A DNA stretch of 64,000 nucleotides, taken from positions 276,312 through 340,311 of the forward strand of contig NZ_CM001437.1 in the NCBI RefSeq assembly GCF_000243275.1, in the 5' to 3' direction. Both the position numbers and the translations under genes were made by a program. Below the pieces are notes generated by a model that saw only the letters and a list, made by a program, of their open reading frames with translations, had not been told where the DNA came from and made no database searches. This stretch comes from Myroides odoratus DSM 2801 (lineage in GTDB: Bacteria > Bacteroidota > Bacteroidia > Flavobacteriales > Flavobacteriaceae). Shown here in pieces: positions 2,360 to 25,121 of this stretch (the stretch's first letter is position 1; each line of letters opens with the position of its first letter).

Positions 2360-3299
2360 AAGGTTCGATTAAATAGTTGGTATTGTTTAAGGTGATGGTA
2401 CAGTTAGCCACAAAAGCGAGTGCTTGTATGAATTCATCTAGAGTTACTTGATCAAATACGCCTGTGATTCGCTTTTGTGCAAAAACAGGATCTTGAATCA
2501 CAAAAGTGACCCCGTAAAATTGATTGATTTGAGTTAAAGCTTGTGCTAAAGGGGTATTGTCAAAGATGAGCTTTTCATTGCGCCAGCTCATTTGTTGTTC
2601 TGCGTTGGTTTTGAATCGCTTGACTTCTCCTAAGCTTGTATTCCACACGAGTTGCTCATTGGGTTTGAGGTATAGTTGTTCGCCGTTGCCTAATTTGGCC
2701 AATACTTTTCCTGAAAGCAAGGCTACTCGTTTTTCTTGCCCGAGGGTATTGACGCTGAATTGAGTCCCCACTACTTCAATTTCTAAATCTTCGTGTTTGA
2801 CGAGGAATTTCTTGTTTACATTTTTGACTACATCAAAAAAGGCTTCCCCTTCTAGCCAAGCTAAACGCATAGAGTCATTTTGCGTGTATTGCAAACGCGC
2901 TTGTCCATTAAGCACAACAACGCTCCCATCTTCTAAGGTGACTTGTTTACGCACCCCTGGTAAATTAGTGTAGATACGGTATTCAGAATGCGCTGGATTC
3001 ACAGTAGGTTGAACCAGCAAATACGTCATCATAAAACTACCAATCAGCACCAAAATCGTACAGGCCACTCGGATATACCAAGTGTTCACCTGTTTTTTTC
3101 TTTTTGATTGCTGTTTGGCTTCTTGCCAAATTTCACCATTGGTCGGATAAGCTTTCCACAACAAACAGTACGTTTCATAGGTGCTCTTTAGCTCTTCATC
3201 AAAAAGCAAATCTATTTCAAAGGTAATTCGTTCTTCTTCAGTATATTCTCTAGTGAGATACTGAATACATCGGCGCTTATTTAATTCTTGTTCACTCAA
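2325..3299 (-). CDS. FecR-family anti-sigma factor
   Basis: This inner-membrane anti-sigma protein of 324 residues would hold the ECF sigma factor through its N-terminal cytoplasmic part and read the receptor's STN domain with its periplasmic part. One membrane helix lies at about residues 76-96 (TILVLIGSFMMTYLLV). The FecR domain follows (about 110-215, with RKQVTLEDGSVVVLNGQARL and GEAFFDV). A C-terminal STN-like domain (DUF4974 type) is at about 240-320 (NTPLAQALTQINQFYGV). The start codon is TTG; an in-frame TGA lies four codons upstream and no earlier ATG is available. It is the first gene of the operon and overlaps the sigma gene by 35 bp. Confidence 0.92.
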   Translation of the reverse strand: MSEQELNKRRCIQYLTREYTEEERITFEIDLLFDEELKSTYETYCLLWKAYPTNGEIWQEAKQQSKRKKQVNTWYIRVACTILVLIGSFMMTYLLVQPTVNPAHSEYRIYTNLPGVRKQVTLEDGSVVVLNGQARLQYTQNDSMRLAWLEGEAFFDVVKNVNKKFLVKHEDLEIEVVGTQFSVNTLGQEKRVALLSGKVLAKLGNGEQLYLKPNEQLVWNTSLGEVKRFKTNAEQQMSWRNEKLIFDNTPLAQALTQINQFYGVTFVIQDPVFAQKRITGVFDQVTLDEFIQALAFVANCTITLNNTNYLIEPYAQYPLSKKQP

Positions 3300-3623
3300 A
3301 ACTAATCAGAAGTTTGGTTTAGTAAAGGAGTGAAATAATTGATTTTACACCTAGAATTTAAGGTTATTGAATTGTTAGGGAATCATTACGATTATTTGGA
3401 TAATGAAAAGGTAGATGAAGGTAGAATGAACATAGGATGAACCCAGTATTAAAAAAAGAATATACAAGGTAAATGGCGCCTTTTTCATCTCTTTAAGTAC
3501 GGAAAGAAGAAGTGTACGTTTAAAAATAAGGCGTCATTTTTTAAAGTTTTAAAAACGAAATTTGGAAGAATTGCCTGTACATATTCCTGCGAAAATGCCC
3601 CTTAACTTTACAGCATATCGAAA
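3300..3623. other. Intergenic region upstream of fecR-like gene
   Basis: No gene is visible. Two inverted arms (3471-3482 and 3528-3539, AAATGGCGCCTT against AAGGCGTCATTT, one G-U pair) enclose a loop of about 45 bases. They could be the tail of the AraC transcript or an operator. The promoter of the fecR operon must lie here, but I see no clear TAnnTTTG box at a sensible distance from the TTG start. Confidence 0.3.
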
Positions 3624-17231: not shown

Positions 17232-18386
17232 ATGATTAATCATATTAAAACGATGGATCTTCTAAAATACTTGTTGATTTCGATCCCCATGATTTCCGCA
17301 ATGACTTGTGGCATCATTTTTATCATTGTTTTTCACAAGAGTTTATCTGCTACAGAGAATAGGATTCGCTGGACACTTGGCGGATACTATCTCTTGATGA
17401 TTTTTATGTGGTTACTCACCAATATATCTTTAGAACACTATAAAGGTAGGTTATTTCTTGTGCCTGTTTTTTTCTTGTTGATCCACCTCACACAAGTTGT
17501 ATTCTATCATTTTATATGCTACATACTACCAAGTAAAGAAGCCTTTAATCGCTTTCACTATAAACTAACACTAGTCATTTTTATCATGTCTATTGTTTTA
17601 GTCTATGTCTTGCTTTCCACAAAAGGGTATAAGGATTTAGACTTGTACTATTTTTTCTATCGTTATCTCTATATCTATACCTCTTTAACGATGATCTATT
17701 ATACTAGCTTATGTTGGGTGAGATTATATCAATACAACAAGGAACAATTTGGCTTTATGTTTCATGCGAACCGATTGAATTGGATTCATTTATTATTGGT
17801 ATTGAGAACCATTTTTTCCATCCTATTCACCTTCAATAATCATAAAATCTTATTCATTGACGTTGCGATTATCCTATTAATTCCTTTACAACATATTGTC
17901 GTAACTTATAATATGCTACAAAAGAATATCGTTAATAAATTAGTCAGTCAATATCGAACCAATGTTATGTTACCTTCTGGACAAATCGTAACGGTTGACA
18001 ACAAAGGAGCCATCGATAATTTACCTGTTGAATCTGCCTATGACAATACTTATGTAGAATCAACGAGTTTACTAACACAAGAAGATATACTCTCTTATTT
18101 TTCAACAGATAAACCTTATTTAAACAAGAATTTTAAACTCGATGACTTGGTTAAACATTTTAGTATTAATCGAACGTATATTTCCAAATTCATCAATGTC
18201 ACGTTTCATACCAATGTGAGCCAGTTTATCAATCAATGGCGATTAAAAGAAGTAGATGAATTACTTCAAACCAAGCCTGAATTAGGTCTTGAAGAAATAG
18301 TTCTTCTTGCTGGTTTTTCCAACTATAGGCATTACCAAAGATCCAAACAAATCATCAATCAAAATAAAATAGACCTAAATCAATAA
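17232..18386 (+). CDS. Membrane protein with seven helices and a C-terminal AraC-type DNA-binding domain
   Basis: This is a predicted membrane-bound transcription regulator of 384 residues. Seven hydrophobic segments occupy about residues 10-245 (for example LLISIPMISAMTCGIIFIIV, LFLVPVFFLLIHLTQVVFY, VAIILLIPLQHIVVTY). A linker follows, then an AraC-like domain at about 285-375 (FKLDDLVKHFSINRTYISKFIN and LEEIVLLAGFSNYRHYQRS). The usual C-terminal tail of the second helix-turn-helix is missing. The next gene has the same architecture and starts 4 bp after this stop, so the two are a cotranscribed, diverged duplication. The signal sensed is unknown. Confidence 0.82.
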   Translation: MINHIKTMDLLKYLLISIPMISAMTCGIIFIIVFHKSLSATENRIRWTLGGYYLLMIFMWLLTNISLEHYKGRLFLVPVFFLLIHLTQVVFYHFICYILPSKEAFNRFHYKLTLVIFIMSIVLVYVLLSTKGYKDLDLYYFFYRYLYIYTSLTMIYYTSLCWVRLYQYNKEQFGFMFHANRLNWIHLLLVLRTIFSILFTFNNHKILFIDVAIILLIPLQHIVVTYNMLQKNIVNKLVSQYRTNVMLPSGQIVTVDNKGAIDNLPVESAYDNTYVESTSLLTQEDILSYFSTDKPYLNKNFKLDDLVKHFSINRTYISKFINVTFHTNVSQFINQWRLKEVDELLQTKPELGLEEIVLLAGFSNYRHYQRSKQIINQNKIDLNQ

Positions 18387-18390
18387 ACTT

Positions 18391-19518
18391 ATGGATTTCG
18401 AATACTTATTCTTAGTGATTTCTTTTTCAGCGTCGATTTTTTCAGCCTTATTTTGCTTGGTCTTGATTACGCTAAAAGTATATGATCATTCGTTAGATTT
18501 TTTCACCAAAAGGTTATCCATCGCTTTGATGTCCTTTTACATTGTTAGTATCATTTTCTTTGTTACTATCTTTTTTTACGTCTTTAATTTAAAACTATAT
18601 TGGTGGTTTAAAGGCTTGAATTTTCAATCGGTGCTGTTACTGCCCATTATTTTTTATCACATTGTATTTAAATTATCAAGGTTAAAAAAGGATGAGAACT
18701 TTAGTTACTACCATTATGTCATTTGTTTTTTGATTGGCATCTCTTATATCATCTATTCTAGAGTAATGCCTCAAACGCCTATAGCATCAGAGAGTGATAT
18801 CAAAAATGCATTATTTTTCGATGATGGTAGAATCGTCACTCGAATTATATACAATACCGTATATCTTTCTTTAGCACTTTATAGGCTCATTCGATATCGA
18901 AAACACATTAGTAATTATTCTTCGGATACTAGTCAAAATTCGTTGACCTGGATGTATCATATATTATTAATCAGCATTTTGATTTACCCAGGTCCTATTT
19001 TATTTTACCTGATTCCCGATATGAAGAACAGCTTGCTATTTGGTCAGTTGATTCCCAACTTTTTATTTATGTTTTTTAATATTAGTTTATGTTACAATAT
19101 TTTTAGTCAAAATTTCAATCTCGTTTATGAAGATATCATCCTTGATGCGGATGAAGTAGAAACCAAGAAATACAAAGAAGTGGTCATCGATAAAGCCACC
19201 TTTGAACAATATCTTTATAATGAAAAACCCTTTTTAAACCCTCAATTAAAAATTACAGATTTATTGCCCGATTTAATGACGAATAGAACCTATCTATCAT
19301 CCTTTATCAATAATACATATCAAATGAATTTCTCTCAATTTATCAATAAATGTAGGTTTAAAGAATATTTAGATTTAAAAGAAACCTTGGATCATAGTAA
19401 CCTCAATGAGGTAGATCTTATATTGGCTAGTGGTTTTCGCAGCTATGAGAGTTTTAAACGAACAGAATCCTATTACTATAAAACAATGATGTCCAATGAG
19501 ATGTGCAGCAATACGTAG
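18391..19518 (+). CDS. Second membrane-bound AraC-type regulator (tandem paralogue)
   Basis: This protein of 375 residues has the same plan as the preceding gene. Seven hydrophobic stretches fill about residues 3-245 (LFLVISFSASIFSALFCLVL, YHYVICFLIGISYIIYS, LIPNFLFMFFNISLCYNIF). A DNA-binding part follows at about 285-370 (LKITDLLPDLMTNRTYLSSF and NEVDLILASGFRSYESFKR). The segment before the DNA-binding part is similar in both (EDILSYFSTDKPYLN against ATFEQYLYNEKPFLN). Overall identity is low, which suggests old duplication and separate signals. The 4-bp spacing implies one transcript; the two may form a heterodimer, though nothing in the sequence shows it. Confidence 0.82.
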   Translation: MDFEYLFLVISFSASIFSALFCLVLITLKVYDHSLDFFTKRLSIALMSFYIVSIIFFVTIFFYVFNLKLYWWFKGLNFQSVLLLPIIFYHIVFKLSRLKKDENFSYYHYVICFLIGISYIIYSRVMPQTPIASESDIKNALFFDDGRIVTRIIYNTVYLSLALYRLIRYRKHISNYSSDTSQNSLTWMYHILLISILIYPGPILFYLIPDMKNSLLFGQLIPNFLFMFFNISLCYNIFSQNFNLVYEDIILDADEVETKKYKEVVIDKATFEQYLYNEKPFLNPQLKITDLLPDLMTNRTYLSSFINNTYQMNFSQFINKCRFKEYLDLKETLDHSNLNEVDLILASGFRSYESFKRTESYYYKTMMSNEMCSNT

Positions 19519-19646: not shown

Positions 19647-20078
19647 TTATTCCCCTTGCTTTCTAAAGCCATTAGGCGACAAACCCGTATGCTGTTTAAA
19701 ATAGCGGCAAAACAAGCTTGGATCCTGAAAATTGAGTTGATTACTCACCTCTTTGACCGATAAATCTGATGTTTTTAGTAAGGATTTTGCTTGTAGCATA
19801 ACAATATGATTGATCCATTTCAAGGCAGATTTCCCTGTCTTTTTGCGCAATAAAGTCGTTAAATAAGGAGGCGTTAAGTTCAACTTTTCCGCATAAAAAT
19901 GGATGTCCCGATGTGCTACTGCATGTTTAGAAACCAAGGCGTAAAACTCCTCTATAATAGTCGTACTGCGATCTGTTCCTACGTCTACTCTACCACTCAG
20001 TCCTTCATGCGCTTCCATAATCATGTGCATCAACCAACGCCAGCAGATGATACCTGATGATTGTATTCTTTTGCGCAC
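19647..20078 (-). pseudogene. AraC-family regulator lacking its N-terminal half
   Basis: This is the DNA-binding half of an AraC-type regulator. It shows DIHFYAEKLNLTPPYLTTLL, KKTGKSALKWINHIVMLQAK and VKEVSNQLNFQDPSLFCRYF, close in pattern to the full-length regulators at 22924 and 51274. Those proteins have about 170-190 residues before this domain; here only about 35 recognisable residues remain (starting near ICWRWLMHMIM), and the frame opens with GTG in unrelated sequence. The plus-strand fragment of another broken gene begins at the same place, so a deletion or recombination joined the two near 20050. Internal ATG codons near residues 17-21 could still allow a short DNA-binding protein. 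Confidence 0.65.
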
Positions 20079-20205
20079 TGGACGTATTGGCCTACCTATT
20101 ACTTATCGATCAAACGAAAGAACCTTACTCAATGAAGAGATTAACGCCATCCAAGAAGCCATTCGAATGGAGCTGTCTGAAACCTTTGCCATCACCCTAA
20201 GATAA
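20023..20205 (+). pseudogene. Remnant of an FDX-ACB-type domain (3' end of a pheT-like gene)
   Basis: This frame ends in LPITYRSNERTLLNEEINAI and then QEAIRMELSETFAITLR. The pattern RTL-x-x-EEI-x-A ... L-x-x-x-F-x-x-x-LR is that of the anticodon-binding C-terminus of phenylalanyl-tRNA synthetase beta chain. Homology starts near 20083 and everything before it is missing. A strong terminator 35 bp downstream fits an original complete gene ending here. The functional pheT would be elsewhere in the genome. The family call rests on about 38 residues, so it is tentative. Confidence 0.45.
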
Positions 20206-20345: not shown

Positions 20346-20372
20346 GTGTCCCCTTTAGGAAAATTCAATCGT
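20346..20372 (+). promoter_or_regulatory. Putative ECF-dependent promoter (GTGTCCCCTTT-N7-TTCAATCGT) of the YCII-sigma operon
   Basis: GTGTCCCCTTT (20346-20356), seven bases, then TTCAATCGT (20364-20372). The same two blocks with the same spacing and orientation occur 45 bp before azoR. Reading TGTCCCC as -35 and CGT as -10 gives a 16-base spacer, normal for ECF promoters. The likely reader is the sigma factor encoded at 20745. Confidence 0.65.
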
Positions 20373-20401
20373 CTTAGGGTAAATAATAAAATAGAAAGAC
20401 C

Positions 20402-20743
20402 ATGAAAGATTTTATGCTTATTTTCAGATTACAAGATGTGGCGGATGCTCAACCTTCTCCAGAACAAGTGCAAGAACGCATGAATTGGCTCGCCAGTATT
20501 GCGGCACAAAATAAATTGGTAGACAAAGGCAATACGCTTTTACCCACGAAAGAAAGTGCAAAACACATCCGTGCAAACCAAATTGTATCCGATGGGCCTT
20601 ATACGGAGATTAAAGAGTTCTTAAGCGGTTATATCGTCATCCGAACGGAAACCATCGAAGAAGCGGTTGAAATTGCCAAACAAAACCCTATTTTCAAAAT
20701 TGGGGGAAGTATTGAAGTACGAGAAATTTTAAAACGCAACTAA
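20402..20743 (+). CDS. YCII-related (DGPF-type) protein
   Basis: This small cytoplasmic protein of 113 residues has one YCII domain (KDFMLIFRLQDVADAQPSPE, then VSDGPYTEIKEFLSGYIVIR, then GGSIEVREIL). The motif DGPYTEIKE corresponds to the DGPF motif of proteins that are encoded next to ECF42-group sigma factors. The sigma gene follows after one base. The family role is unclear; it may sense or bind the signal for the sigma factor. An ECF-like promoter lies 30 bp before the start. Confidence 0.9.
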   Translation: MKDFMLIFRLQDVADAQPSPEQVQERMNWLASIAAQNKLVDKGNTLLPTKESAKHIRANQIVSDGPYTEIKEFLSGYIVIRTETIEEAVEIAKQNPIFKIGGSIEVREILKRN

Positions 20744-20744
20744 T

Positions 20745-21995
20745 TTGGATCATTCAACAAAAGTGCAGGAAGTAATTCCGAATCTGTTTCGAGAACAATA
20801 TGCAAAGATGACGGCTGTACTATGCCGTCATTTTGGCTTAGCGCATATTGAACTAGCTGAAGATATTGTGAGTGATACTTTCTTAAAAGCAACGGAACGA
20901 TGGACTATAGAGGGAATTCCCCAATATCCAGAAGCTTGGTTGTATACCGTTGCCAAAAACAAAACCAAAGATTACTTTAAACATCAGGCGGTGTTTGATC
21001 AAAAAGTGAAAAGCGAAATTAGCCCACACACAGACCAAGAAGATTTGCCGATTGAACTAGATTCGACGGTTAGTACGGATAGTCAACTGGCGATGATTTT
21101 TGCTATTTGTGATCCCATTATCCCAGCGGAAGGGCAACTTTGTTTAGCACTGCAAATTCTATGTGGATTTAGTATAGATGAAATTTCCAATGCACTATTA
21201 ACTAAAAAAGAAACGATTAAGAAACGACTGTTCAGGGCAAAAGAACAATTAAGAGCCAGTAATTTTGAGATTAAAGCACTCTTGCCCACTCAAATTAACC
21301 AGCGATTGCCTCAGGTTCATAAAACCTTATACCTCTTTTTTAATGAGGGTTATTTTTCTACCAATCACAATCAAGTGATTCGAAAAGAGTTGTGTTATGA
21401 AGCCCTCCGATTAACGGTTATGTTAACGGCCAACGACAAGACTAATACGGCAGAAACGAACGCTTTGCTTGCATTACTTTGCTATCAAAGTTCGCGTCTG
21501 GATGCAAGAGTCGACCATCAGGGGGAACTTGTTTTATTTGACCAGCAAAAAACGGCAGATTGGGATACTGCCCTGATAGACAAAGGAAATTATTATCTCG
21601 TACAAGCAACCAATCAGGAGGAAACATCAAAATATCATTTGGAAGCCGCTATTGCCTATTGGCATACAACGCAAAACCCAGCGAAATGGATGTCTATTTT
21701 GGATTTGTACAATCAGTTAATCTTAGTCGAATACTCGCCGATAACAGCCCTAAATCGCACCTTTGCTTTTGCGCAAGTCTATGGAGTTGAAGCAGGAATA
21801 AAAGAGGCTGAAAAGCTGGAGCTCCTCCATAACCGCTTTTATTTTGAGCTGTTGGGTTATCTCTATACCCCAGTACATCCACAAAAAGCAATTCACTTCT
21901 TTCAACAGGCGTTAGCGTTGACTCAATCGCCTGCAGAACAAAATATCCTAAACCAAAAGATAGCTGCACTAACCACACAGCAAAACGAAAAATAA
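20745..21995 (+). CDS. ECF42-type sigma factor with C-terminal helical extension (DUF6596)
   Basis: This sigma factor of 416 residues would control its own operon and azoR. Region 2 is at about residues 12-80 (LFREQYAKMTAVLCRHFGLA, AEDIVSDTFLKATERW) and region 4 at about 110-170 (QLCLALQILCGFSIDEISNA, then KKETIKKRLFRAKEQLR). A long C-terminal helical, TPR-like extension (about 190-410: LYLFFNEGYFS, LALLCYQSSRLDAR, RTFAFAQVYGVEAGI) is typical of ECF42 and replaces a separate anti-sigma factor. The only start that keeps the conserved N-terminus is TTG at 20745, one base after the YCII stop; the next ATG would cut into region 2. Confidence 0.92.
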   Translation: MDHSTKVQEVIPNLFREQYAKMTAVLCRHFGLAHIELAEDIVSDTFLKATERWTIEGIPQYPEAWLYTVAKNKTKDYFKHQAVFDQKVKSEISPHTDQEDLPIELDSTVSTDSQLAMIFAICDPIIPAEGQLCLALQILCGFSIDEISNALLTKKETIKKRLFRAKEQLRASNFEIKALLPTQINQRLPQVHKTLYLFFNEGYFSTNHNQVIRKELCYEALRLTVMLTANDKTNTAETNALLALLCYQSSRLDARVDHQGELVLFDQQKTADWDTALIDKGNYYLVQATNQEETSKYHLEAAIAYWHTTQNPAKWMSILDLYNQLILVEYSPITALNRTFAFAQVYGVEAGIKEAEKLELLHNRFYFELLGYLYTPVHPQKAIHFFQQALALTQSPAEQNILNQKIAALTTQQNEK

Positions 21996-21997
21996 AC

Positions 21998-22032
21998 AAG
22001 AGCTACAGCCGAAAAGGCAATAGCTCTTAGTT
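21998..22032. terminator. Bidirectional terminator between the sigma gene and azoR
   Basis: AAGAGCTA (21998-22005) pairs with TAGCTCTT (22021-22028); AGTTTT follows on the plus strand and TTTATTTTT follows on the minus strand. The two genes converge here. Confidence 0.55.
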
Positions 22033-22047
22033 TTATAATCTCTTATG

Positions 22048-22641
22048 CTATTGAAAATTTTCTACGATTCCTGCATAATCAGGTGAAAAATTAGGAAAGG
22101 CGGTTCCTTCTATTCGATAAGTCACTACGGCTGTAATCCCAACATAGGCCTTCAAAACAGCTTTCAAGTAATCCGCTAAATAATCCTGAACGATTCCCGC
22201 TGGTTGTATTCCACCGGAAGCAATAGCCAAATAGACTTTTTTCTGCGTAATCAGTCCTACTCGACTCCCTTTTTCGTCATACGTATACGTTACACCCACG
22301 CGAACCAGTTGATCCACCCATGCTTTTAAATGAGCCGAAACAGTAAAATTATAAGTCGGTGTACTGATTACGATGATATCTGCTTCCTTCACTTTGTCAA
22401 CAACTCTATTGGCATAGGCTAACGTTGGAATAGAATCATAGTTGGGTTGGTCTGGTGCAACATAGAAGCTCTGAATCATCTCACTGCTGTATAAAGGTGG
22501 TGGGTTCTGCACCAAATCCCACGTTTCTATGGCAATCACTTGTTCTTGTTCTTCTAAACGCTTGATAATAGCTAATCCTAAGTTCGTGCTATGCGACTGT
22601 TCTCCTCTTGCACTTGAGGTAAGGTGTAAAATGGTCTTCAT
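22048..22641 (-). CDS. azoR: FMN-dependent NADH-azoreductase / quinone reductase
   Basis: This flavodoxin-fold enzyme reduces quinones and azo compounds with NADH and bound FMN; about 197 residues against about 200 for the E. coli enzyme. It shows LHLTSSARGEQSHSTNLG (phosphate-binding loop for FMN), ADIIVISTPTYNFTVSAHLK (the family's P-x-YNF motif) and VYLAIASGGI. The start is ATG 22641; a TTG just before it is less likely. Its promoter shares both blocks and spacing with the YCII-sigma operon, so it is probably a target of that sigma factor, consistent with defence against electrophiles or quinones (inference). Confidence 0.93.
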   Translation of the reverse strand: MKTILHLTSSARGEQSHSTNLGLAIIKRLEEQEQVIAIETWDLVQNPPPLYSSEMIQSFYVAPDQPNYDSIPTLAYANRVVDKVKEADIIVISTPTYNFTVSAHLKAWVDQLVRVGVTYTYDEKGSRVGLITQKKVYLAIASGGIQPAGIVQDYLADYLKAVLKAYVGITAVVTYRIEGTAFPNFSPDYAGIVENFQ

Positions 22642-22672
22642 CAATTTTAAAGTATTTTCATTTTACTACTTA

Positions 22673-22699
22673 ACGATTGAAAAACAACAAAGGGGACAC
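22673..22699 (-). promoter_or_regulatory. Putative ECF-dependent promoter of azoR
   Basis: Read on the minus strand: GTGTCCCCTTT (22699-22689), seven bases, TTCAATCGT (22681-22673), then about 32 bases to the ATG. It is identical in both blocks and in spacing to the promoter at 20346-20372, while the intervening bases differ, which argues for selection on the blocks. Confidence 0.65.
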
Positions 22700-22923: not shown

Positions 22924-23793
22924 TTATTGATTTCGATAAGCATTAGGTGTTTGCCCGATGTATCTTTTAAAATAGCGACAAAAAAGAGAGGCATCTGCAA
23001 ACTCCATTTTATCACTAATCTCCTTAATGGACAAGGAAGTCATATTCAAATACTCTTTTGCTTTATTAATGACGACAAAACCAATCCAAGACTTGATTGA
23101 TTTTCCGGTTCTTTTTTTAATTAATGAACTCAAGTGCTGGGGAGTTAAATGCAATTGCTCCGCATAAAAAGAAACTTGTCGTTGCAATTCGCCATGTTGC
23201 TGCAATAATTCGAAAAAAGAATCGGTAATTTGGTTGATTCTATTTTTTTGTAAATTCTCTTTTTGGGTTAAAGATTGGTACGACTTCGCTACGCCCGTAA
23301 TGAGTGAAAAAGCGAGATATTGTATCATCTGATTCAACAAAATAGTCTTGGGTTGCCCATAGTACTTCACAATTAATGCCGCAAGTTCTTCCAGTCTTTC
23401 TTTATCTTGTGCCGCAGCATATAACAAAGGGGAATTCAAAACCTCCGTATTGCTGATTAGCTCTGGCAGAATAGTAAATTTCTCTATGAAGTCATAGGAC
23501 ATCAGAAAAACAGTCGCCCTAAAATCTTCACTAAAAGACAAGGGTTCTACCGTCATCTCTGGTAAGATGGTAAGTATAGCCTCTTCTTCTACGCGATATG
23601 CTAGTTTATTAATCTTTATCGACAAGGAACCTTGCGTACAACATAACAAGACAAGCCCTCTAAACTGATAACTCCATTCAAAGAAAGACAACTTTGTCTC
23701 ATCCTGTGCTTCAACAAGGAAAAATTCTTCCATTAAAAAAGGATAAAATACCTGATATCGAGTATTGAGCTCCGAAATTTTTAAAAGATGCAT
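22924..23793 (-). CDS. AraC-family regulator divergent from the MFS transporter
   Basis: This full-length AraC-type regulator has 289 residues. The sensor half (about 1-180) has no enzyme motif. The DNA-binding half is at about 190-289: VSFYAEQLHLTPQHLSSLIK, KRTGKSIKSWIGFVVINKAK, IKEISDKMEFADASLFCRYF, IGQTPNAYRNQ. It is transcribed away from the MFS gene, with 164 bp between starts. Two direct copies of AAAATGGAATAT 21 bp apart lie in that gap and are good candidates for its binding sites. It is a paralogue of the broken regulator at 19647 and of the one at 51274. Confidence 0.92.
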   Translation of the reverse strand: MHLLKISELNTRYQVFYPFLMEEFFLVEAQDETKLSFFEWSYQFRGLVLLCCTQGSLSIKINKLAYRVEEEAILTILPEMTVEPLSFSEDFRATVFLMSYDFIEKFTILPELISNTEVLNSPLLYAAAQDKERLEELAALIVKYYGQPKTILLNQMIQYLAFSLITGVAKSYQSLTQKENLQKNRINQITDSFFELLQQHGELQRQVSFYAEQLHLTPQHLSSLIKKRTGKSIKSWIGFVVINKAKEYLNMTSLSIKEISDKMEFADASLFCRYFKRYIGQTPNAYRNQ

Positions 23794-23869
23794 CGTCGTT
23801 TTTTTTGTAAAAATATAAAACCAAAACGAGTGTGGTTGTTAAATCTTAGTCTTCGTTTATCAAATCTTT

Positions 23870-23902
23870 AAAATGGAATATAAAAGCCTTAAAATGGAAT
23901 AT
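23870..23902. promoter_or_regulatory. Direct-repeat operator candidate for the AraC regulator
   Basis: AAAATGGAATAT occurs at 23870-23881 and 23891-23902. The spacing is 21 bp, two helical turns, which is how AraC proteins bind direct half-sites. The second copy ends 21 bp before a TACTTTCG promoter box, a position suited to activation of the MFS gene. Confidence 0.6.
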
Positions 23903-23923
23903 CCCAAGCCCTCGTGTAAATCC

Positions 23924-23931
23924 TACTTTCG
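23924..23931 (+). promoter_or_regulatory. Candidate -7 box of the MFS gene
   Basis: TACTTTCG differs from TAnnTTTG at one base. Transcription would start near 23938, 20 bp before the ATG. No good -33 element is seen, as expected for an activator-dependent promoter. Confidence 0.35.
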
Positions 23932-23957
23932 TACCGATTCAACTTATTCCATTACGT

Positions 23958-25121
23958 ATGAGGTTTATTTTTTCCCCAAACAGCAACAGCACACGCGTTG
24001 CTATTTCTCTTTTTTTCTTTGCTCATGGTCTTGTTCTATCTTCTTGGGCCAGTAGAATACCGAGTATCAAAACACAGCTTGCTCTGACAGATGCTGAACT
24101 TGGCACGCTACTCTTACTCCTCCCTATTGGGCAGATCAGTACCATGCCTTTATCGGCAAAACTAATCCGTACTTATGGTAGTCAACGAAGTGTTCGCTAT
24201 GGCTTCCTGCTTTATCCCCTGGTGTTGGTTCTCCTCGGATTTGCGACGCATTATGTAACATTAGCATTGGGTTTGTTCTTCTTTGGTGTTTTGGGAAATC
24301 TATGCAATATCGCCATCAATACACAAGGCGTCGAATTAGAAACTAGGCTGAATAAGTCCCTGATGTCCTCTTTTCATGGGGCTTGGAGTATTTCTGGATT
24401 TATCGGTGCTTTATTTGCTTTAGGGATGTTGCATTATCATCTTTCTACCGCCACGCATTTTATACTCGTCTACTTCCTTGTTATTTTACTGTGGGTTTTT
24501 AGTTATAAGGGATTGATAACGGTTGAGCCAACGCCAAATAAAGAACGAGAAAAGGGTTCTATCTTCAAACAGTTAGACAAAACGCTCATTCAATTGGGGA
24601 TTATTGGCTTCTTGAGTATGGCGATTGAAGGGGCAATGTTTGATTGGAGCGGTGTCTACTTTCAGGATATTGTGCAAGCCCCTGAACACTTGATTATTCT
24701 CGGTTATACGTCTTTTGTTCTCCTGATGGCAATCGGTCGATTTTTAGGTGATCGACTCGTAACAATATTGGGGCATAAAAAGGTCATTCAATATTCGGGT
24801 ATCTTGATGAGTTCGGGATTACTCCTTACCGTTTTCTTTCCCCACTTGCTGCTGACTACTTTTGCTTTTATGCTTGTCGGACTTGGGGGTTCTTGTAGTG
24901 TTCCTACGTTATATGGGATAGCGGGTAAACATCCAAAGGTACATCCCGGAACAGCGCTAACCTTAGTGTCCTCTATTGCTTTTTTAGGTTTTCTACTAGG
25001 GCCTCCTGTGATTGGTTTTATCTCCTCGTCTTTTGACCTTCGATACTCGTTTGCCTTATTCTCCCTATTTGGAATTGTCATGGTACTTCTAGGAAACAAG
25101 GCTACATTATTTAAAACATGA
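23958..25121 (+). CDS. MFS transporter (YbjJ/fucose-permease-like)
   Basis: This inner-membrane carrier of the major facilitator superfamily has 387 residues with about 12 hydrophobic segments. The first helix begins RVAISLFFFAHGLVLSSWAS, then RIPSIKTQLALTDAELGTLL, which is common in the YbjJ-like and sugar-permease branches. The basic loop RTYGSQRSVRYGF between helices 2 and 3 is the usual MFS landmark; helix 7 starts at GIIGFLSMAIEGAMFDWSGV. The substrate cannot be read from the sequence. The divergent AraC gene and the direct repeats between them suggest inducible expression. Confidence 0.9.
   Translation: MRFIFSPNSNSTRVAISLFFFAHGLVLSSWASRIPSIKTQLALTDAELGTLLLLLPIGQISTMPLSAKLIRTYGSQRSVRYGFLLYPLVLVLLGFATHYVTLALGLFFFGVLGNLCNIAINTQGVELETRLNKSLMSSFHGAWSISGFIGALFALGMLHYHLSTATHFILVYFLVILLWVFSYKGLITVEPTPNKEREKGSIFKQLDKTLIQLGIIGFLSMAIEGAMFDWSGVYFQDIVQAPEHLIILGYTSFVLLMAIGRFLGDRLVTILGHKKVIQYSGILMSSGLLLTVFFPHLLLTTFAFMLVGLGGSCSVPTLYGIAGKHPKVHPGTALTLVSSIAFLGFLLGPPVIGFISSSFDLRYSFALFSLFGIVMVLLGNKATLFKT

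Follow-up and report, generated by a model that had tools for sequence, protein, structure and literature searches.

We analyzed a 64,000-nucleotide stretch of the Myroides odoratus DSM 2801 genome (contig NZ_CM001437.1, forward-strand positions 276,312 to 340,311; hereafter the window, numbered from its first letter), which carries an operon for a YCII-type protein and an extracytoplasmic function (ECF) sigma factor of ECF42 type. The gene azoR lies downstream of this operon and convergent to it, and both transcription units are preceded by the same bipartite element:

20346 to 20372, plus strand: predicted ECF42-type promoter of the YCII-sigma operon; -35 TGTCCCC, -10 CGTC; exact motif, conserved before orthologous operons
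20402 to 20743, plus strand: YCII/DGPF-type partner, 113 amino acids, contains DGPY (PF03795, 39.3 bits, cut-off 24)
20745 to 21995, plus strand: ECF42-type sigma factor, 416 amino acids, start TTG (Sigma70_r2 and DUF6596 above cut-off; AlphaFold2 pLDDT 84.7)
21207 to 21257, plus strand: predicted sigma4 recognition helix, residues 155–171, with residue 159 at codon 21219–21221 (AlphaFold2 model, equivalence to SigW K170)
21282 to 21992, plus strand: all-helical TPR-like C-terminal extension (DUF6596; helices in the model)
22048 to 22641, minus strand: azoR, FMN-dependent NADH-azoreductase/quinone reductase family, 197 amino acids (PF02525, 120.8 bits)
22673 to 22699, minus strand: predicted ECF42-type promoter of azoR; exact motif, matrix score 23.9

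Two identical sites at an ECF42-type operon and azoR

The element GTGTCCCCTTT-N7-TTCAATCGT occurs as two exact copies, at 20346–20372 (plus strand) and 22699–22673 (minus strand). The first-pass annotation of this DNA had described these matching bipartite sites correctly, i.e., with the same blocks and spacer length, and comparison of the two copies also agrees with its remark that the bases between the blocks differ. The azoR site reads CGTT, the operon site CGTC. No third copy with up to three mismatches was found in the rest of the window, nor in 100 shuffles. TGTCCCC-N14..18-CGT is expected 0.10 times in the window, and two matches were reached by one of 100 shuffles. Nor are strict matches spread widely through the genome: TGTCCCC-N16-CGT matches twice in 4,301,842 bases, both times in the window, and the reversed pattern once. 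The lax form TGTCNNC-N16-CGT gave 26 matches in this genome versus 66 for its reversed control, hence this form alone carries no signal; two lax sites that we inspected lie antisense within genes. From the end of CGT we counted 29 nt to the YCII ATG (20402) and 31 nt to the azoR ATG (22641). The promoter-like position claimed earlier stands, with the figure of 30–32 bp corrected.

By its sequence and predicted fold, the sigma gene has ECF42 architecture, i.e., Sigma70_r2, DUF6596, a helical TPR-like extension and a YCII partner. Sigma region 2 matched PF04542 with 30.7 bits (cut-off 24) and DUF6596 matched with 111 bits; Sigma70_r4_2 stayed below its cut-off (21.5 vs. 25.7 bits), and profile matches in the PDB to SigL, sigmaE and SigW cover regions 2 and 4. 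Among NCBIfam models only the generic sigma70-ECF superfamily model passed (44.2 bits, cut-off 42.9). The genome holds one DUF6596 sigma gene. In the AlphaFold2 model, computed with 40 aligned sequences, helices run through residues 181–415. A Foldseek search with this model returned TPR proteins as top PDB matches (best E 2.6e-3) with ECF sigma factors lower and none at E ≤ 0.001, and the sigma profile matched a consensus TPR (CTPR) chain with E 2e-4; the TPR nature of the extension is thus supported, albeit weakly. The helical extension and DGPF/YCII partner that had been proposed for this factor are borne out by DUF6596, the modelled helices and the adjacent PF03795 gene. For azoR, the best NCBIfam model was the FMN-dependent NADH-azoreductase (73.2 bits, below the cut-off of 188).

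A review describes ECF42 factors by a TPR extension and a YCII neighbor (PMC8999054), and DUF6596 is listed for a Streptomyces venezuelae sigma factor (PMC11256431). The M. odoratus protein resembles S. meliloti RpoE10, S. venezuelae Sven_0747 and P. putida ECF-10 in combining sigma2-sigma4 with a long TPR-type extension and a YCII neighbor (PMC6180224, PMC8999054). Sites associated with RpoE10 read TGTCGG...CGTC (PMC6180224). Counted by eye, the starts of TGTC and CGT are 23 nt apart in S. meliloti, equal to the distance in M. odoratus, and the proposed ECF layout (TGTCCCC as -35, CGT as -10, spacer of 16) fits these sites; the -35 differs, being TGTCCCC here and TGTCGG there. From these comparisons and the conservation described below, it is very probable that both sites serve as -35/-10 promoters for the ECF42-type sigma factor encoded at 20745–21995, which would drive its own operon and azoR.

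Recurrence of the motif before operons and azoR genes in relatives

A scan of genome contigs confirmed 482 relatives, and the best 80 of these, i.e., the nearest relatives, formed our sample of named loci; the closest among them is Myroides marinus, with a sigma factor 70% identical. In 64 of the 80 loci, the 160 nt that precede the first identified gene of the operon contain TGTCC[CT]C-N16-CGT, and in 74 they contain the relaxed TGTCC-N17..19-[CT]GT, so a site before the partner operon is found in most loci here, a difference from S. meliloti. On the same loci the reversed pattern gave 0/80 and shuffles 0.02 per 80. In 57 of the 64 strict-site loci, CGT was 26–35 nt from the match start. Adding six relatives and the window (87 loci, 905,007 bases), TGTC-N19-CGT occurred within 400 nt in 71, and the strong motif form matched 79 times versus six times for the reversed control. 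Orthologous YCII-sigma and azoR promoters carry the motif. Their lack of it, like a scatter of the strict motif over the genome, had been named by the first-pass annotation as an outcome that would speak against its reading, and neither was observed.

A wider draw covered 296 genomes of the phylum, 55 of them with DUF6596 (64 genes); of the 63 genes outside the M. odoratus genome, 60 were taken. Some TGTC-type candidate preceded an open reading frame (ORF) upstream of the sigma gene in 47 of these 60 loci, and in 45 a TGTCC-type site was picked by hand. The picking left out L365 (two unconvincing TGTCC candidates) and L415 (TGTCA), and involved a choice between two TGTCC candidates each in L407, L408 and L413. 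A broad pattern, TGTCC-N13-TCAATCGT, gave 27 matches in 21 of 397 family genomes against 12, by our count, for the reversed form; it was largely background, and the loci L071–L094 were dropped.

In two Chitinophaga genomes (L210, L213), two ECF42-type sites lie about 410 nt apart, the first before DoxX, the second before YCII. In L034, a carboxymuconolactone decarboxylase-like gene (3167–3622, minus strand; PF02627) is first in the operon; the same holds for L033, L035 and L171, with Pfam run on L034 alone, and all four loci belong to the TGTCCAA subfamily. A carboxymuconolactone decarboxylase partner is described beside an ECF41 factor of S. meliloti (PMC6180224).

azoR is, judged from sequence, a recurrent target of the motif in relatives. 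Our first azoR search found the gene in seven of 60 genomes including its own, the others at most 39% identical, and this result taken alone would look contrary to conservation. M. marinus and two Sphingobacterium loci have a convergent azoR downstream of the operon, preceded by a site of its own, one of the three reading TGTCCTC. Among the 80 named loci, 14 have an operon of the order azoR-YCII-sigma, led by an azoR-family gene that is preceded in each case by the strict or the relaxed motif; Pfam, run on six of these genes, found Flavodoxin_2 in all six. The inclusion of azoR in the regulon thus held up downstream of the operon, within it, and, as shown next, at unlinked places.

From 49 ECF42 genomes we fetched 40 motif sites that lie elsewhere than at the operon promoter. 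A target-type gene followed on the same strand 43–95 nt past the site in 18 of them (eight azoR, four old yellow enzymes, two DoxX, four YCII; ten named by Pfam, the others by evident similarity), and 15 of these 18 sites lay outside every ORF of at least 100 amino acids, with three overlapping one. One site (L224) was ambiguous; the 21 within such ORFs were counted as background, although for six an ORF start of some kind falls within 300 nt. DoxX and SDR genes beside the operons in L125 and L149 also have sites.

A profile built from 11 azoR proteins picked out 74 azoR-like genes, spread over 37 of the 49 genomes. Since part of this profile comes from genes that bear a site, the ranking it gives is not independent. 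The promoter matrix, by contrast, is independent; it was built from 55 YCII-operon promoters with the window and all azoR-first operons excluded. Under this matrix 22 azoR genes, one in each of 22 ECF42 genomes, scored 10.3–40.0, with sites 45–97 nt before the match start, and the other 52 scored -0.8 or less, with nothing in between. Eight azoR genes in six DUF6596-negative genomes scored -3.9 or less. The 22 azoR-site genomes did not overlap with seven genomes that have sites at old yellow enzyme or DoxX genes (chance 0.010, compared post hoc), which hints that these may be alternative targets.

That the pair in the window arose by chance or by recent duplication of one promoter segment might be suggested by their distance, both lying within 2.4 kb. 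The bases between the blocks differ, however, the pairing recurs with other spacers in M. marinus and Sphingobacterium, and sites stand at unlinked azoR genes in other genera; the matrix separation of azoR genes contradicts this explanation as well, and we regard it as extremely improbable.

Residue 159 of sigma4 and the -35 bases

Bases 6 and 7 of TGTCCNN differ between subfamilies. Among 126 sigma factors with an assigned site, residue 159 ranked first for base 6 (12.9) by mutual-information z-score and second for base 7 (12.8), behind residue 265 (12.9); these scores used clustered weights without a tree, and other residues were also high, as expected among related sequences. Promoters with CC, CT, TC or CG at these bases go with K or R at residue 159 in 92 of 92 cases. 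With AA (21 promoters) the residue is N in 12, Y in seven, A in one and a gap in one; with TA (four) N in three and H in one; with AG (three) T in all; with TG (one) Q; and with GG (five) E in all. Three loci added by eye (L370, L412, L422) all agreed, bringing the set to 129 sigma factors, of which 128 agree in residue and promoter class, the exception being an alignment gap.

On a tree of the 129 sigma factors, computed from the C-terminal extension only, promoter class changes seven times, whereas shuffles required at least 26 changes. All seven share a branch with a change of residue class; an eighth residue change is the gap in L390. Some counted sites (L372, L402, L404, L399, L407, L414) have a weaker link to their sigma factor because they lie 1.7–2.4 kb before its gene. 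A clear site was not found in L386 and L415 (E159), L374 and L396 (S159), and most A159 loci. Descriptively, the code pairs K/R with CC, N/Y with AA, T with AG, and E with GG.

Work by Todor in 2020 is said to have rewired ECF specificity on the basis of covariation. In a crystal structure of B. subtilis SigW on its -35 DNA, K170 makes a bond to O6 of the guanine that lies at -31 of the template strand, opposite C-31, the density for K170 being weak (PMC6713349). Aligning the motifs by eye, T168-x-K170-T171-R172 of SigW corresponds to T157-I-K159-K160-R161, and base 6 of TGTCCCC falls at -31; the equivalence of K170 and residue 159 agrees with a profile alignment to E. coli sigmaE. The M. odoratus factor has the recognition-helix geometry of the sigma4/-35 complexes of SigW and E. 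coli sigmaE, with SigW differing in its GAAAC-type -35. We propose that residue 159 of sigma4 would read base pairs 6–7 of TGTCCNN. Its covariation with the promoter would then be a testable natural specificity code, which the solved sigma4/-35 complex explains structurally.

Alternatively, the sites could be operators of a DNA-binding regulator, e.g., the AraC-type protein encoded at 22924–23793, rather than sigma promoters. Its gene adjoins azoR, and the block is conserved as a binding site would be. The element is, however, non-palindromic and in most loci precedes the start by about 30 nt, its spacing matches that of ECF42-associated promoters, it covaries with the sigma4 recognition helix, and the AraC-type protein was matched by tblastn in only seven of the 80 named loci. 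We consider an operator very improbable.

A putative regulon, its signal and its surroundings

Several observations weigh against reading the sites as promoters of a conserved ECF42 regulon with a residue code. The strict motif is absent within 160 nt in 16 of the 80 named loci, in six of which the relaxed form is absent too. In the 49 ECF42 genomes TGTCCCC-N15-TCGT is hardly commoner than its reverse (87 vs. 74 matches), being present at least once in 48 of them; genome-wide counts alone show no enrichment, and the signal is in the site positions. The best shuffle of any azoR region (20 per region) scored 7.9, close below the weakest accepted azoR site at 10.3. Four azoR genes in three other DUF6596-positive genomes (G008, G024, G599) have negative scores under the TGTCCCC matrix and lack the site by this measure, and in 27 of the 49 genomes the motif precedes no azoR. 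The classes of residue 159 were set after viewing the data, so the covariation is descriptive, and some uncounted candidates would break the code, i.e., TGTCCAG in L393 (Y159), TGTCCCG at 134 nt from an ORF in L363 (A159), and TGTCCCA and TGTCCAT in L365 (A159). Finally, overexpression of RpoE10 in S. meliloti did not raise its YCII partner (PMC6180224); ECF42 autoregulation can therefore not be assumed in general. Of the autoregulation invoked by the first-pass annotation, the site before the own operon stands and the generality does not. The two matching sites that it had described are nevertheless confirmed, and the small ECF42-type regulon that it had proposed is supported by the strict sites, the ECF42 architecture, the conservation and the recurrence of azoR; the case is stronger than first claimed, and the residue 159 covariation is a descriptive addition of the follow-up.

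In the proposed mechanism, the sigma factor would switch on its own YCII-sigma operon in a positive feedback and would also drive the convergent azoR, these two transcription units making up the entire strict-motif regulon of the M. odoratus genome. Upon a cytoplasmic signal, the sigma factor is probably held or released by its DUF6596/TPR-like extension together with the YCII protein. ECF42 activity is described to require that the proximal extension touches sigma4, with a ligand on the TPR domain suggested to suppress it (PMC9023288), and the YCII protein was suggested to take part in the ECF42 switch (PMC8999054). Stress by quinones or other electrophiles is the most plausible signal, given that FMN-dependent azoreductases and old yellow enzymes are among the further targets that recur in relatives.

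Azoreductases and quinone oxidoreductases are described as one FMN-dependent superfamily (PMC4051601), and one old yellow enzyme under the promoter was best matched by the N-ethylmaleimide reductase model (296 bits, below the cut-off of 403); the identity of these targets points to quinone or electrophile stress. The regulon may instead be real and respond to another signal, e.g., general redox, antibiotics or biofilm, with azoR as a general flavin reductase. RpoE10 targets in S. meliloti, i.e., glyoxalase-like and other conserved hypothetical proteins (PMC6180224), would fit this, and they differ from azoR, old yellow enzyme and DoxX as targets here. The old yellow enzymes that share the promoter (4 of the 40 fetched sites), including the one with the N-ethylmaleimide reductase match, and the kinship of azoreductases with NAD(P)H quinone oxidoreductases (PMC4051601) argue against it; another signal has a considerable chance of being correct, somewhat short of even.

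Regulons for quinones and electrophiles in Firmicutes and Enterobacteria, i.e., those of MhqR, YodB and NemR, have azoreductase- and N-ethylmaleimide-reductase-type targets, and YodB and NemR are repressors of this response. The proposed quinone/electrophile response resembles these systems, which use repressors where an ECF sigma factor would act here. MhqR is a quinone-sensing repressor of MarR type (PMC6798810, PMC12893000), and Bacteroidota would, if our proposal is true, have a sigma-factor counterpart of such repressor-based quinone regulons. Tentatively, we extend this to Bacteroidota ECF42 factors as a system for electrophile response that is widespread and has no separate anti-sigma factor, with azoR, old yellow enzyme and DoxX as alternative targets and with subfamilies made promoter-distinct by the one-residue code at position 159. 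Little is known, in the available literature, of what ECF42 factors respond to and which genes they control, and no tie between ECF42 and azoreductases was found in the open-licence literature searched, i.e., partial listings with the main ECF42 papers outside them. Because the targets here include enzymes whose chemistry is known and which recur in several Bacteroidota genera, the signal is directly testable with quinones and N-ethylmaleimide.

Next to azoR lies a divergent pair of genes, for the AraC-type regulator and an MFS transporter (region 22924–25121, Pfam); the transporter was matched by tblastn in none of the 80 named loci. Further upstream of the operon, at 17232–19518 (plus strand), two tandem proteins of 384 and 375 amino acids have membrane-spanning N-termini by eye; a C-terminal AraC-type helix-turn-helix in the first scored below cut-off, and Pfam matched nothing in the second. 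Close to the operon promoter, on its upstream side, a 54-amino-acid remnant at 20041–20205 (plus strand) resembles the C-terminal FDX-ACB domain, which occurs for instance in the phenylalanyl-tRNA synthetase beta chain (PF03147, 28.4 bits, below the cut-off of 31.1) and overlaps a short AraC-type ORF of 143 amino acids with a GTG start (19647–20078, minus strand). Both are probably gene debris.

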